A stretch of 64,000 nucleotides of DNA from an uncultured Sphingomonadaceae bacterium (GTDB taxonomy: Bacteria; Pseudomonadota; Alphaproteobacteria; Sphingomonadales; Sphingomonadaceae), in contig CANMFX010000003.1 of NCBI GenBank assembly GCA_947497315.1, forward strand, positions 496,001 through 560,000. Direction: 5' to 3'. Below the pieces are notes generated by a model, which worked only from the letters and a program-made list of their open reading frames with translations, ran no database searches and was not told the origin of the DNA. A program made the translations under genes and the position numbers. Shown piece by piece: positions 36,997-41,156 of the stretch (its first letter is position 1; each line of letters begins with the position of its first letter).

Positions 36997-37623
36997 ATGG
37001 CAGACACAAATCTCAATCGCAGCGACAGTACTGGTGCAGAGCGCGGTTTCACGCTGGTGGAAATGATGGTCGCCCTGTTCATTTTCTCGCTGCTGTCTGT
37101 TGCCGGTGTCGTCCTTTTGCGCGGTGCGGTGAACAGTAATGAAGTTACCGACGCCAAGCTCAGCGACATGGCGCAGATGCAGCGGCTCGTTTCGTTAATG
37201 GAGGCGGATTTGAGTCAGGCGCTCCCACGGCCGCATCGCAATGAAGAGGGTGACCGAGTTGCCGCCTTTGTAAGCGAAACCGGGTCGCAGGGCCGAGGAT
37301 TTTTATCCTTCTCCCGCGGCGGACAGAGCAATATCAACAATAAGCCGCGCTCCAATATGCAGCGTGTATCCTATCAACTGAATGACGGCCGATTGGAACG
37401 CCTACAATATGAAGCAACCGATGGCGGTGCAGTGAGCGAGCCTGCCGTCTTGCTGGATGGCATAAGCGCGCTTCAATTGCGTTTTCGCGACAAGAGAGGA
37501 CAGTGGGTTAGTCGTTGGCAGACAGAAAGGCTCAGCGACATACCGCGCGCGGTCGAAATGCGATTTGATCAGAATGGGCGAAGCTATCGTCATGTTTTTC
37601 TGATCGGGACCGGTTATTTGTGA
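36997..37623 (+). CDS. gspJ: Type II secretion minor pseudopilin GspJ
   Basis: A 208-residue minor pseudopilin of the type II secretion system. The prepilin peptidase site is in ERGFTLVEMMVALFIF near residue 17, cleaved after the glycine, followed by a hydrophobic helix and a polar globular domain ending in YRHVFLIGTGYL. The start MADTNLNRSDS at 36997 was preferred to 36931, because the leader before the cleavage site would otherwise be over 35 residues. Only gspK follows, and no gspG, H or I is adjacent. Confidence 0.87.
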   Translation: MADTNLNRSDSTGAERGFTLVEMMVALFIFSLLSVAGVVLLRGAVNSNEVTDAKLSDMAQMQRLVSLMEADLSQALPRPHRNEEGDRVAAFVSETGSQGRGFLSFSRGGQSNINNKPRSNMQRVSYQLNDGRLERLQYEATDGGAVSEPAVLLDGISALQLRFRDKRGQWVSRWQTERLSDIPRAVEMRFDQNGRSYRHVFLIGTGYL

Positions 37624-38609
37624 AGCCGGTTTACTTCGCCAAGAAAAGTGAGAGGGGTGCCGCGCTGCTGACCGTTCTACTTTTGGTTGCGGTCATCGCC
37701 GTGCTGGCCGCCCATGGGATTGACCGGCTGGCGGGCGCGACCAAACTCGCGTCCAACGCGCGTGAGCTCAGCCAGGCCAAGGCATATCTGATCGCGGCAG
37801 AATCCATCGGCATGCAGTCGGCCGAACAAATCGTTAGCCTTTCGCCCGGCCGGACGACTAATCTTGGCGGCTGGAACGGTCAGGAACGTCAGTTTCCGGT
37901 TCCTGGTGGATTGATCACTGCAGCGCTTACAGACGGTGGAAACTGTTTCAACATCAACAGTTTGGTAAGCCAGACTGACGCGGTGTTTTCGGCTCGACCG
38001 GAAGGACAAACGCAATTTGTCCGCTTGATGGAGTTGCTGGAAATCCCCCAAGGGCAGGCGGCGGATATTGCAGAGTCTGTTACCGACTGGATTGATAGCG
38101 ATACGGTTCCATTTCCGCGCGGTGCAGAGGATGAATATTATATCCAACTGGAAACACCCTATCGCACCGCTAATGCGATCATGGTTGATGTCAGTGAGCT
38201 CCGCACGGTAAAAGGCGTGACAAGTGATGTTTACGCTCGTTTGGCACCCTGGCTCTGTGCGTTGCCGACCACTGACTTGTCGCCAATCAATATTAACACA
38301 CTCCGTCCGGAACAGGCTGTCTTGCTGGCCATGCTGTCCAACAATCCTGATATTGTGCAGACCCGGCAGTTTCTTGGACGACGAACGGAGACCGGTTATG
38401 GTAGTCTCAACGACTTCTGGGCAGAACCGTTTCCCGCAGGCTTTCTGGCACCATCGCAGGTGCAGGGGCAAGTGAAATTGAAAACACGCTGGTTCAGGCT
38501 GGACATGGCCGTCGAAATGCAAAGCGCTCTGGTGGAGGAGCGGGCCTTGGTTGACGCGGCCCGCCAACCGGCGCGTCTTGTCCACCGTCAGCGCGGCGAT
38601 GCGCTTTGA
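37620..38609 (+). CDS. gspK: Type II secretion minor pseudopilin GspK
   Basis: A 329-residue large minor pseudopilin at the tip of the type II secretion pseudopilus. The prepilin-like N-terminus is ERGAALLTVLLLVAVIAVLA. The body contains FNINSLVSQ, VTDWIDSDTVPFPRGAEDEYY and the helix-hairpin-helix-like SPININTLRPEQAVLLAML typical of GspK. It starts at GTG overlapping the gspJ stop (GTGA). The pair is followed directly by the tRNA-His region. Confidence 0.9.
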   Translation: MKPVYFAKKSERGAALLTVLLLVAVIAVLAAHGIDRLAGATKLASNARELSQAKAYLIAAESIGMQSAEQIVSLSPGRTTNLGGWNGQERQFPVPGGLITAALTDGGNCFNINSLVSQTDAVFSARPEGQTQFVRLMELLEIPQGQAADIAESVTDWIDSDTVPFPRGAEDEYYIQLETPYRTANAIMVDVSELRTVKGVTSDVYARLAPWLCALPTTDLSPININTLRPEQAVLLAMLSNNPDIVQTRQFLGRRTETGYGSLNDFWAEPFPAGFLAPSQVQGQVKLKTRWFRLDMAVEMQSALVEERALVDAARQPARLVHRQRGDAL

Positions 38610-38719: not shown

Positions 38720-38797
38720 GGCGATCGTAGCTCAGTTGGTTAGAGCGCCGGTTTGTGGTACCGGAGGTCGGGGGTTCGAGACCCCTCGGTCGCCCCA
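38720..38797 (+). tRNA. tRNA-His (anticodon GTG)
   Basis: A complete cloverleaf with encoded CCA. The acceptor strand GCGATCG (38721-38727) pairs with CGGTCGC (38787-38793). The anticodon stem CCGGT/ACCGG encloses the loop TTGTGGT with anticodon GTG, and the T-loop is TTCGAGA. The extra G at 38720 faces discriminator C at 38794, which is the G-1:C73 identity element specific to tRNA-His. The 3' part, from the anticodon loop on, is duplicated exactly 1.2 kb downstream. Confidence 0.96.
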
Positions 38798-38799
38798 TT
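38752..38799 (+). repeat. att-type direct repeat, tRNA-proximal copy
   Basis: These 48 bases run from the anticodon loop of tRNA-His to two bases past its CCA and are identical to 39929-39976. The intact tRNA is on this side, so this is the recreated host site of an integration event. Confidence 0.92.
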
Positions 38800-38829
38800 A
38801 TTTCTGCGGGTTACAGCGATTTTGTAACT

Positions 38830-38840
38830 GTGCTCCTAGG
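38830..38840 (+). repeat. GTGCTCC motif near left end of the island
   Basis: GTGCTCCTAGG, then a few bases later CCGGTTCA, partly matches the 15-bp repeats at 39749 and 39810. It could be a third degenerate recombinase arm-type site. Confidence 0.3.
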
Positions 38841-38929
38841 TTTTTACCGGTTCAGTTGAACCGATAACTCTTTCTTGGCTTTCTCAGTATTGGTGGGCTG
38901 TCATAGCATATAGAAAGGCGTCAAATCGT

Positions 38930-39670
38930 CTAATTTGATCTAAACTCGTCATGGCTCGCCGTAAACATTTCCAATTCGTCGATTGATGGTTCGCTACCTT
39001 CATTGCATCTCGTAAAATCATCAATAAGTGGTTGATAAAACCGAGACAGCTTTTTGCCCAACTTTGATTTGGGCCATTCTCTTATTATGTCGTCTCGATT
39101 GAAAACAACTTGGCGGTATGATTTTGCTGGAACGTGCAAGTGATTTCCCCGTCTTGATGCAGCTCCACGCTTATCATCGCACAACTGTATTTCGGCGAAG
39201 GGTTGAAAAAAAGCTGTTTCCCAAAAATCTGGATTGATTGGGGTGGTAGTTTCTGTTTCAAGTGTCATTCCAGCTTTTATTGTTTCAATTCCACGGGCAG
39301 AGATTTGACCTCGAGCAAGACGTTCCTTGACTTCGTTTTCCAAAAGACTGTCCAGGTCAGGTGCTGGCAACAGTTCGACTTGGTGAGACCATTCGCTTTC
39401 AAGGGCAATATACCGCAACGCTAGATGCATGGGCATCCAATCGGTATGTTGGGTACGGGGAGTACCTGTTGTTTTCTTATATTCCCGAAATTCGTTAATC
39501 TGCTCATAGAACCAAACGGCGGCCAATCCCAACAGCCCGGCAGTAATAAACCAAACGGCGTTATCCTTTAGGAAGTCGGCATCAAATAAAGCCCAGACTC
39601 CCGCCAAAATGATCTCCACCGCCAACATAGCAACAGTTCTGGGGCCGCGTCTCTTCAGAGTTGATTTCAT
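38930..39670 (-). CDS. Two-helix membrane protein of unknown function (island cargo)
   Basis: A 246-residue protein, not recognised. Two hydrophobic helices lie at about residues 14-31 (VAMLAVEIILAGVWALF) and 38-56 (NAVWFITAGLLGLAAVWFY), followed by a charged cytoplasmic domain of about 185 residues with no obvious catalytic motif. The AAGGGGA ribosome site sits 5 bases before the ATG at 39670, which is preferred to an upstream start at 39691. It is the only evident gene of the tRNA-His mini-island and is AT-richer than its surroundings. Architecture alone (short N-terminal membrane hairpin plus soluble domain) is shared by several phage-defence effectors and immunity proteins. No homology is claimed. 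Confidence 0.7.
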   Translation of the reverse strand: MKSTLKRRGPRTVAMLAVEIILAGVWALFDADFLKDNAVWFITAGLLGLAAVWFYEQINEFREYKKTTGTPRTQHTDWMPMHLALRYIALESEWSHQVELLPAPDLDSLLENEVKERLARGQISARGIETIKAGMTLETETTTPINPDFWETAFFQPFAEIQLCDDKRGAASRRGNHLHVPAKSYRQVVFNRDDIIREWPKSKLGKKLSRFYQPLIDDFTRCNEGSEPSIDELEMFTASHDEFRSN

Positions 39671-39748
39671 ATTTCCCCTTAGCACAATCAATTATGATTG
39701 CATCAGGGTGGGTGTTTATCGACCCACGAGCTCTGTACATTAAAACCA

Positions 39749-39824
39749 GTGCTCCACGGTTCAAATACAATTCGAATGTTGACCCAAAAGGCACTTTTTT
39801 GTTGTACCTGTGCTCCCCGGTTCA
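39749..39824 (+). repeat. Pair of 15-bp direct repeats (GTGCTCC-M-CGGTTCA)
   Basis: GTGCTCCACGGTTCA (39749-39763) and GTGCTCCCCGGTTCA (39810-39824) differ at one base and are spaced 61 bp apart, inside the island close to its right end. Short direct repeats here are typical of integrase arm-binding sites, but this role is inferred. Confidence 0.45.
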
Positions 39825-39928
39825 CTATGAACCGCGAAGATCAAGTCGGGTGTGAAAGGGAAGGCTGTACGTTCGTAAGTTGGTTGCAATCCGGTCGTAA
39901 AGTACGCAGAATTACTGAAATACCCAGC

Positions 39929-39976
39929 TTTGTGGTACCGGAGGTCGGGGGTTCGAGACCCCTCGGTCGCCCCATT
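39929..39976 (+). repeat. att-type direct repeat, distal copy (partial tRNA-His)
   Basis: An exact 48-bp duplicate of 38752-38799, carrying the anticodon loop, T-arm, acceptor 3' strand and CCA but lacking the tRNA 5' half. It marks the far boundary of the inserted island and cannot give a functional tRNA. Confidence 0.92.
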
Positions 39977-40106
39977 TTCAAAATCACATATCCCATATAT
40001 TCAAATGGTTAGGGGTTCCGAGGATATCTTGGGGTGACAAAAGTGTTTTGTAATATTATTACGTTTCCACCAAATTATGTTACTCATCAATTGAGGGGTT
40101 TTGCCA

Positions 40107-41156
40107 ATGTCGGTAATGTGGGATTTGCCAGATTTTGACGGCCATGAAGCTGTCCATTTTTTTCAGGATGTTGAAACTGGTCTCAGTGCGATTATTGCCC
40201 TTCATTCCACCCAATTGGGTCCCGGCGCTGGCGGCACGCGCTTCTGGCATTATGAGAATCGCGAAACCGCTGTAATTGACGCTCTGCGCCTGTCGCGCGG
40301 GATGAGTTTCAAGAACGCGATGGCTGGACTGCCTCTTGGCGGTGGAAAAGCAGTCATATTGGCGGATCGCAATCGTACCAAATCGCCAGAAATGATGGCC
40401 GCTTTCGGGCGGATGATCGATTCTCTGAGTGGCCGTTACGTAACGGCGGAAGATGTTGGCATCAGTACCGCCGATATGGTCGAGGTTTCCAAGCAGACAC
40501 AATATGTCTCTGGTCTGCCGGTGAGTGATCAAAGTGACGCTGGCGGAGATCCGGGACCATTTACGGCCATGGGTGTCTATCTTGGTGTTAAGGCTGCGGT
40601 AAAGCACAAGTTGGGCCGCGATAGCATGGAAGATATCCATGTTGCCATTCAAGGGGTTGGCAGTGTCGGCGGGGGATTGGCGCGCTTGCTGGCTGAAGAT
40701 GGTGCGCGGCTGAGCATTGCGGACATCAACAAGGACCATGCGGCCAATTTGGCTGCGGAGATTGGCGCGACCGTCGTTGGCTTAAATGATGTGATGCGTC
40801 TTGAGGCTGATGTCTTTAGTCCCAATGCCTTGGGCGCGGTTCTGGACAAAGTCTCAATTGCGCAGCTCAACGTTCCGATCGTTGCTGGAGGGGCCAATAA
40901 TCAGCTCGCGACTCCGGAAGATGGACAGCGGATTTTTGACCGCGATATTCTGTTTGCGCCCGATTATGTCATCAACTCCGGGGGCATCATCAGCGTCGGC
41001 CTTGAATATCTAGGCGACAGCGACGTCAATGAGGTCAATAGGCGGGTCGCTAAAATCCCTGCACGACTGACAGAAATCTGGAAAGAAAGCGCAGCGAGTA
41101 AGTTGCCATCAGCAGAAGTCGCCGACAATATGGCTCGGGCGCTAATAGGTCGATAG
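40107..41156 (+). CDS. Leucine/phenylalanine-type amino acid dehydrogenase
   Basis: A 349-residue NAD-dependent dehydrogenase of the Glu/Leu/Phe/Val family, oxidatively deaminating a hydrophobic amino acid to its 2-oxo acid. The catalytic lysine lies in GLPLGGGKAVILAD, GPGAGGTRFWHYENRETAVIDALRL-like substrate region is at residues 39-60, and the Rossmann motif VAIQGVGSVGGGLARLLAEDG is near residue 175. GAGGGG lies 9 bases before the ATG at 40107, and the TTG two codons earlier is too close to it. It is a single gene, convergent with the cyclic-di-GMP protein. Confidence 0.88.
   Translation: MSVMWDLPDFDGHEAVHFFQDVETGLSAIIALHSTQLGPGAGGTRFWHYENRETAVIDALRLSRGMSFKNAMAGLPLGGGKAVILADRNRTKSPEMMAAFGRMIDSLSGRYVTAEDVGISTADMVEVSKQTQYVSGLPVSDQSDAGGDPGPFTAMGVYLGVKAAVKHKLGRDSMEDIHVAIQGVGSVGGGLARLLAEDGARLSIADINKDHAANLAAEIGATVVGLNDVMRLEADVFSPNALGAVLDKVSIAQLNVPIVAGGANNQLATPEDGQRIFDRDILFAPDYVINSGGIISVGLEYLGDSDVNEVNRRVAKIPARLTEIWKESAASKLPSAEVADNMARALIGR

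Follow-up and report, generated by a model that had tools for sequence, protein, structure and literature searches.

A single-gene, integrase-less insert at tRNA-His in a Sphingomonadaceae genome, with predicted phage-type attachment-site arms at both ends

The tRNA-His locus, its insert and the empty site in relatives

The window, that is the whole stretch of 64,000 nucleotides that was analysed, contains a single tRNA gene, a tRNA-His(GTG) that lies between chromosomal genes for a type II secretion protein and a dehydrogenase (Table 1). The last 46 bases of this tRNA gene, plus TT, are repeated further downstream without a mismatch (48/48 bases), and the two copies enclose a unique interior of 1,129 bp (38800-39928), whose one sizeable ORF lies on the minus strand. 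No recombinase was found inside the insert, nor any trace of an integrase or phage gene. The initial annotation had described exact 48-bp repeats at tRNA-His around a 1,177-bp AT-rich segment with one gene and no recombinase; the repeats, the single gene and the lack of a recombinase were all borne out, while 1,177 bp proved to be the repeat-to-repeat distance and "AT-rich" holds moderately, since the GC content is 0.452 in the interior of the insert versus 0.529 in the window. A sub-threshold Rfam match to the HPnc0260 antisense RNA (window 39933-40084, minus strand; 40.3 bits, gathering score 59) sits opposite the displaced tRNA part and is probably a chance match.

Table 1. Features of the tRNA-His locus, in window coordinates; the arm assignments are predictions
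Feature	Position	Strand	Remarks
Type II secretion protein K (gspK), chromosomal flank gene	37620..38609	+	Pfam PF21687, PF03934
tRNA-His(GTG)	38721..38797	+	Intact target gene, restored by the insertion; ARAGORN, Rfam RF00005
Core repeat, tRNA side	38752..38799	+	48/48 identity to 39929-39976
GTGCTCCnnGGTT motif, left side, proposed arm part	38830..38842	+	Not above background at 2 mismatches genome-wide
Left arm palindrome GGTTCAGTTGAACC	38849..38862	+	52 nt after the CCA end
Cargo gene	38930..39670	-	246 aa from ATG; alternative 253 aa from TTG at 39691
Outer right motif GTGCTCCACGGTTCA	39749..39763	+	GGTTCA at -169
Right arm GTGCTCCCCGGTTCACTATGAACC	39810..39833	+	GGTTCA at -108; position shared by 10/17 testable viral loci
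Core repeat, far side (displaced tRNA 3' part)	39929..39976	+	Chromosomal flank starts at the next base in relatives
Glu/Leu/Phe/Val (ELFV-type) dehydrogenase, chromosomal flank gene	40101..41156	+	Pfam PF02812, PF00208; follows tRNA-His in relatives

For the cargo gene, the ATG, which lies behind AAGGGG, is a likelier start than the TTG. The encoded protein has one hydrophobic N-terminal stretch (about residues 10-34) followed by a soluble part, and it had no match in Pfam, PHROGs, NCBIfam or PADLOC; a PDB profile search returned two matches that are not meaningful (E 0.39 and 0.5), and a single-sequence structure model, with a mean pLDDT of 41.5, was of no use. Our guess would be a membrane-anchored accessory protein. 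Cargo relatives are present in four of 397 family genomes, its own included, the three others being distant (25-31% identity over the alignment, all 34% or less), and a four-row profile found two of 396 order genomes, again counting its own. No relatives were found in phages and plasmids, nor in the close-relative scans of genome_contigs and viral_contigs. One of the distant relatives (L042 1951-2751, in G216) is a single gene between apparent ruvA and ruvB. No parent element could be reached via the cargo, since no tRNA gene was found near its three distant relatives in the 14-19 kb examined.

The core pattern, with up to two mismatches, occurs in 29 of the 32 genomes of the genus, and in two copies in this genome only. 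At up to three mismatches, more than one copy was found in three of the 397 family genomes, namely this one, G345 and G332 (where the copies lie on two contigs), and the repeat is thus beyond what chance would explain. When the window flanks are joined, the resulting empty site is identical to the tRNA-His locus of the relative G028 at 203/203 bases, and it is 0.99 identical in two further loci (L021 and L027). The insert had no blastn match in the other 28 congener tRNA-His loci, and in all 28 the 60 bases that follow the repeat match it at 12-20 positions. Given this empty site, and given that the flanks in G028 share 98.6% (left) and 96.0% (right) identity with those of this genome, this lineage either gained a single unit cleanly or gained a larger one that was then trimmed. 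No copy of the island was found elsewhere. These comparisons support a site-specific insertion that would have taken place after the split from the near relatives, and the recent insertion suggested by the initial annotation is upheld by the exact repeats together with the empty site in G028. The possibility, also raised there, that relatives carry the same segment between diverged repeats does not agree with the compared relatives, all of which lack the segment (28/28 congener loci).

Predicted arms and a tRNA-targeting integrase family

Two inverted motifs lie within the insert, a left arm, GGTTCAnnTGAACC, 52 nt past the tRNA end and a right arm, GGTTCA(3)TGAACC, at -108 before the second repeat. 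The exact GGTTCAnnTGAACC occurs once in the 3.4-Mb host genome, at the left arm, and GGTTCA(2-3)TGAACC is found in the window at 38849 and 39819 only. Three copies of GTGCTCCnnGGTT, all on the plus strand, are located near the insert ends (38830, 39749 and 39810). A longer motif, TGTGCTCCnnGGTTCA, matches 16 places genome-wide at two mismatches, the top two being the right-hand copies of the insert, and the left copy of this type is indistinct from the genome background at the same stringency.

A prophage with similar ends was found in another member of the family, G345, where two core copies about 48 kb apart at tRNA-His enclose genes that read as tail- and lysis-like and a 338-aa tyrosine integrase (PF00589) ending 71 nt from the tRNA. 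The left arm of this prophage, GGTTCAGTTGAACC, is at the distance seen in the insert to within 1-2 nt, and the right arm, GTGCTCCCCCGTTCA, lies at -109 as compared with -108. Relatives of this integrase (E 1e-20 or better) occur in 26 of 397 family genomes, and at 18 of 27 integrase loci a tRNA gene is present in the examined stretch (7 Pro, 5 Val, 2 His, 2 Thr, 1 Asp and 1 Ala). The strict palindrome was found within 130 nt of nine of these 18 tRNAs and several others have a GTAC-type palindrome, so the GGTTCAnnTGAACC-type motif marks a subgroup, and the arm sequence seems to vary with the integrase subgroup. By reading, the GTAC-type palindrome takes the place of GGTTCAnnTGAACC at four family integrases located at tRNA-Val and tRNA-Thr (L099, L101, L102 and L103). 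In the integrase tree (24 rows), the tRNA-His integrases of G345, G066, Novosphingobium ovatum (in part) and L137 group with the one at tRNA-Asp, with a clade support of 94/93, just below the mark of 95 set by the tool. A compact 10.2-kb family element that bears an integrase and both arms is situated at tRNA-Asp in another genome (G346:C1:1044655-1054955; L184).

A far repeat could be found in four of seven integrase elements (within about 40-60 kb), with lengths of 48, 48, 49 and 50 bp. The 48-bp core of the insert falls within the 46-50 bp range of the attachment sites of G345-type integrases, and its arms at +52 and -108 fit their layout, which has a left palindrome at about +42 or +53 and a right arm near -108. 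The same layout was observed in viral_contigs, where a tRNA 3' end followed by the palindrome was found at no fewer than 21 loci. The left arm lies at +42/43 or at +52-54 in 21/21 of them, about one helical turn apart, the scan pattern itself having required a left arm at +39 to +67. Four of the 21 loci were too short for the right arm; among the 17 testable ones it is found at -107 to -109 in ten, which fall into four similarity groups, at -97 in one, and not at all by pattern in six. The arm motif and its spacing are common to the insert, the prophages and the phage contigs of one tRNA-targeting tyrosine-integrase family, and from the position of the motifs we infer that the insert has retained both arms of a phage attP. 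Other queries were less productive: in viral_contigs the tRNA-His core found no locus, the close-relative scan with the G345 integrase was negative, and the arm-pair pattern gave four loci, of which the two examined are collagen-like repeats. A tblastn search of phages with the G345 integrase retrieved 212 records, all below 60% identity.

In regard to a helper within the host, its genome (9 contigs, estimated as 100% complete) encodes three PF00589 proteins. Two of these match the family HMM weakly (E ~1e-13 and 1e-11) and are presumably XerC and XerD, and the third, encoded at tRNA-Met near phage-like genes, had no match to it. The search for an integrase encoded elsewhere in the genome, as the initial annotation had envisaged, thus turned up no member of the G345-type family, nor did anything match the G345 integrase at E 1e-20. 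We considered the tRNA-Met integrase (contig 5) as a helper and rejected it, given the negative HMM result and the occurrence of the exact palindrome nowhere else in the genome. It is a 370-aa tyrosine integrase outside the G345-type family, within a phage-like remnant (L041 1-5440) that also contains an ORF composed mainly of RDAARDAA-type repeats (418-1068).

Two-armed elements and solitary arms at other tRNA genes

In pattern scans that used one genome per species, the tRNA plus palindrome pattern was found in genome_contigs at 33 loci or more, and 28 of the matches coincide with a tRNA gene according to ARAGORN. Ten of those 28 loci have a family integrase or a fragment of one nearby and 18 have none; a second core was present in the examined stretch at one of the 18, a tRNA-Arg of Mesorhizobium muleiense (L143) with exact 49-bp repeats 2,108 bp apart, a left arm at +42 and a right arm at -108. 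No tyrosine integrase was found in this element, which contains a serine-recombinase fragment and two ORFs, one of 64 aa and one of 220 aa whose RAMA match is weak and falls below the cut-off. A Mesorhizobium MAG (L140) has a family integrase at the same tRNA-Arg, and the likeness between the two loci stops at the integrase start, since they agree at 57 of the 64 bases directly downstream of the tRNA and at 21 of the 64 that follow.

Within the family, a relaxed pattern matched in 15 of 324 genomes at 16 places, eight with an integrase, one not tRNA-like, and seven without an integrase, our own included. One of the genomes, G240, has at tRNA-His an aged second core (38/46) located 1,716 bp on, where 200 plain shuffles reached 28 at most, with a left arm at +41 and a right arm, GGTTCATGTTGAACC, at -150. 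This element encodes a 216-aa PEPxxWA-CTERM protein and no tyrosine integrase, and G240 is not one of the 26 family genomes with relatives of the G345 integrase.

A scan for second ends at 27 loci, our own included, with examined stretches of 124 to 10,284 bp, found one at three loci and none at 24, two of which (L130 and L145) keep an integrase fragment; integrase-less left arms are therefore mostly relics. The solitary left arms found at tRNA-His just before apparent chromosomal genes in G092 (L215) and in Sphingopyxis granuli (L129 5845-6270) are such relics. By eye, the arm of G092 is the closest to that of the insert. Five other genomes of the genus have the palindrome, once each, always more than 130 nt away from any tRNA 3' end. 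In two of these five congeners (L169 and L174), GGTTCACCTGAACC is seen about 214 nt beyond the tRNA 3' end (Thr and Arg, respectively), at about position 1500.

Possible origin of the insert and relation to known elements

The explanation that we favour, with a probability of roughly 55%, is that the insert is a non-autonomous mini-element resembling a cis-mobilizable element (CIME), in which a complete phage-type attachment site surrounds one cargo gene and which would depend on the integrase of a helper phage. A temperate phage would provide in trans a tRNA-His integrase of the G345-type family, which would insert a 1.18-kb circle at the tRNA gene and could later release the element again. 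Passage from cell to cell could proceed through tandem integration beside the helper phage with excision of both together, or simply by transduction or transformation, with the cargo gene as a passive rider. That the arms bind the integrase, that the element integrates and excises in trans and that a helper phage transfers it are what we infer from the sequence evidence. The initial annotation had proposed mobilisation in trans without having seen the arms; its site-specific insertion and integrase-less state stand, and the mobilisation gains support from the intact attP arms. Several observations weigh on the other side, as an internal deletion in place would leave identical ends, no further copy was found, the cargo relatives are distant and not at tRNAs, 24 of the 27 scanned loci show no second end, the left GTGCTCC copy by itself is not unusual at two mismatches, and a family integrase may be encoded elsewhere in M. 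muleiense, whose genome has many PF00589 matches.

The strongest competitor, which we hold to be less probable and still take seriously, is a CIME formed on the spot, in which a prophage or island would have entered with a tRNA-His integrase of its own and then lost this integrase and almost everything else to internal deletion, with one gene left between intact att ends. Prophages with a G345-type integrase do occupy tRNA-His in the family, integrase-less left arms at tRNAs are common (18 of 28 loci and seven of 15 tRNA places), and CIMEs have been described as products of decay (PMC5704250). However, both an insertion and a large deletion would be needed since the split from G028, whose flanks are highly identical to those of this genome, no phage or integrase fragment is left, and both ends are intact, unlike those of the solo-arm relics. 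Because a phage remnant is missing, because both ends are intact and because two other elements share the layout, we modestly prefer mobilisation in trans over trimming in place.

Phage satellites carry dedicated genes for phage parasitism, with their own integrase, replication or packaging-interference genes. The insert uses a phage-type attP and would likewise depend on a helper phage, but its single ORF lacks a PHROGs match, as it does in the other databases searched, and nothing in it was recognised as an integrase, replication, regulation or packaging gene, which makes a satellite proper, equipped to hijack helper capsids by a programme of its own and of the PICI or P4-like kinds named in PMC11389934, very improbable. 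An old partial tRNA duplication or a chance repeat, with no mobile element involved, is hardly credible although the repeat is part of a tRNA, since the empty site is perfect, arms lie at both ends, and the integrase family typically has repeats of 48-50 bp. The second copy, with an arm located at the distance expected for attR, comprises 48 bp of the tRNA and is not a duplicate of the whole gene.

More speculatively, mobilisation in trans could extend to a whole Alphaproteobacterial class of miniature att cassettes, each with both arms, a swappable cargo of one or a few genes and no integrase, moved by the tRNA-targeting phage integrases of one family and forming a tyrosine-integrase counterpart of MITEs. 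Its members would be the insert, the 2.1-kb element at the M. muleiense tRNA-Arg and the 1.7-kb element at the tRNA-His of G240, whose cargos are unrelated. We propose this class tentatively and with some doubt. Against it weigh the 24 of 27 scanned loci that show no second end, the strict palindrome at no more than nine of the 18 integrase-adjacent tRNAs, the position of the palindrome away from tRNA ends in five congeners, the origin of the ten viral right arms from four similarity groups, the six testable viral loci that show none, and the clade support of 94/93.

According to PMC5704250, CIMEs are bounded by attL and attR, lack integration and transfer genes, and are decayed ICEs or IMEs. 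The insert agrees with this description in keeping attL and attR (exact 48-bp repeats and both predicted arms) and in holding no integration or transfer genes; it differs in that its att sites are those of a phage-type integrase family, in that it has one gene, and in that decay from a larger element would be one of two possible origins. A CIME moves in cis upon accretion with a related element. With the sphingomonad tRNA prophages, as represented by G345, it shares the target tRNA-His, a similar core repeat, the arm motif and the arm spacing, but the prophage is about 48 kb long with an integrase and phage genes, versus 1.18 kb and one gene. A MITE consists of the terminal inverted repeats of an insertion sequence and has no coding gene; the insert ends in direct repeats derived from part of a tRNA and does contain a gene. 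In PMC11389934, MITEs and CALINs are treated as "hitcher" elements that keep the recognition sites, lack the enzyme gene and are mobilised in trans, their sites being those of a transposase or an integron integrase in contrast to the tRNA attP of the insert. The ssrA islands of Dehalococcoides (PMC3146451) are likewise delimited by repeats of the target gene. There are 28 such repeats but 16 islands that have an integration module, which suggests to us that some units lack this module; the islands differ in having a serine recombinase, a tmRNA target and tandem units within 100 kb.

In the literature searched, as far as its accessible parts extend, we met no report of integrase-less att cassettes of the G345-type family, although such reports may exist in print. 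What is new here is the pair of predicted attP arms and the assignment to an integrase family. Integrase-less islands are easily dismissed as remnants. The ends of this insert look like full attachment sites for an integrase family that can be identified, which allows candidate helpers to be named and mobilisation in trans to be tested, and the two-arm motif provides a means to search for such cassettes. If our reading is correct, single genes would travel as bare attP cassettes, invisible to annotation based on integrase genes.
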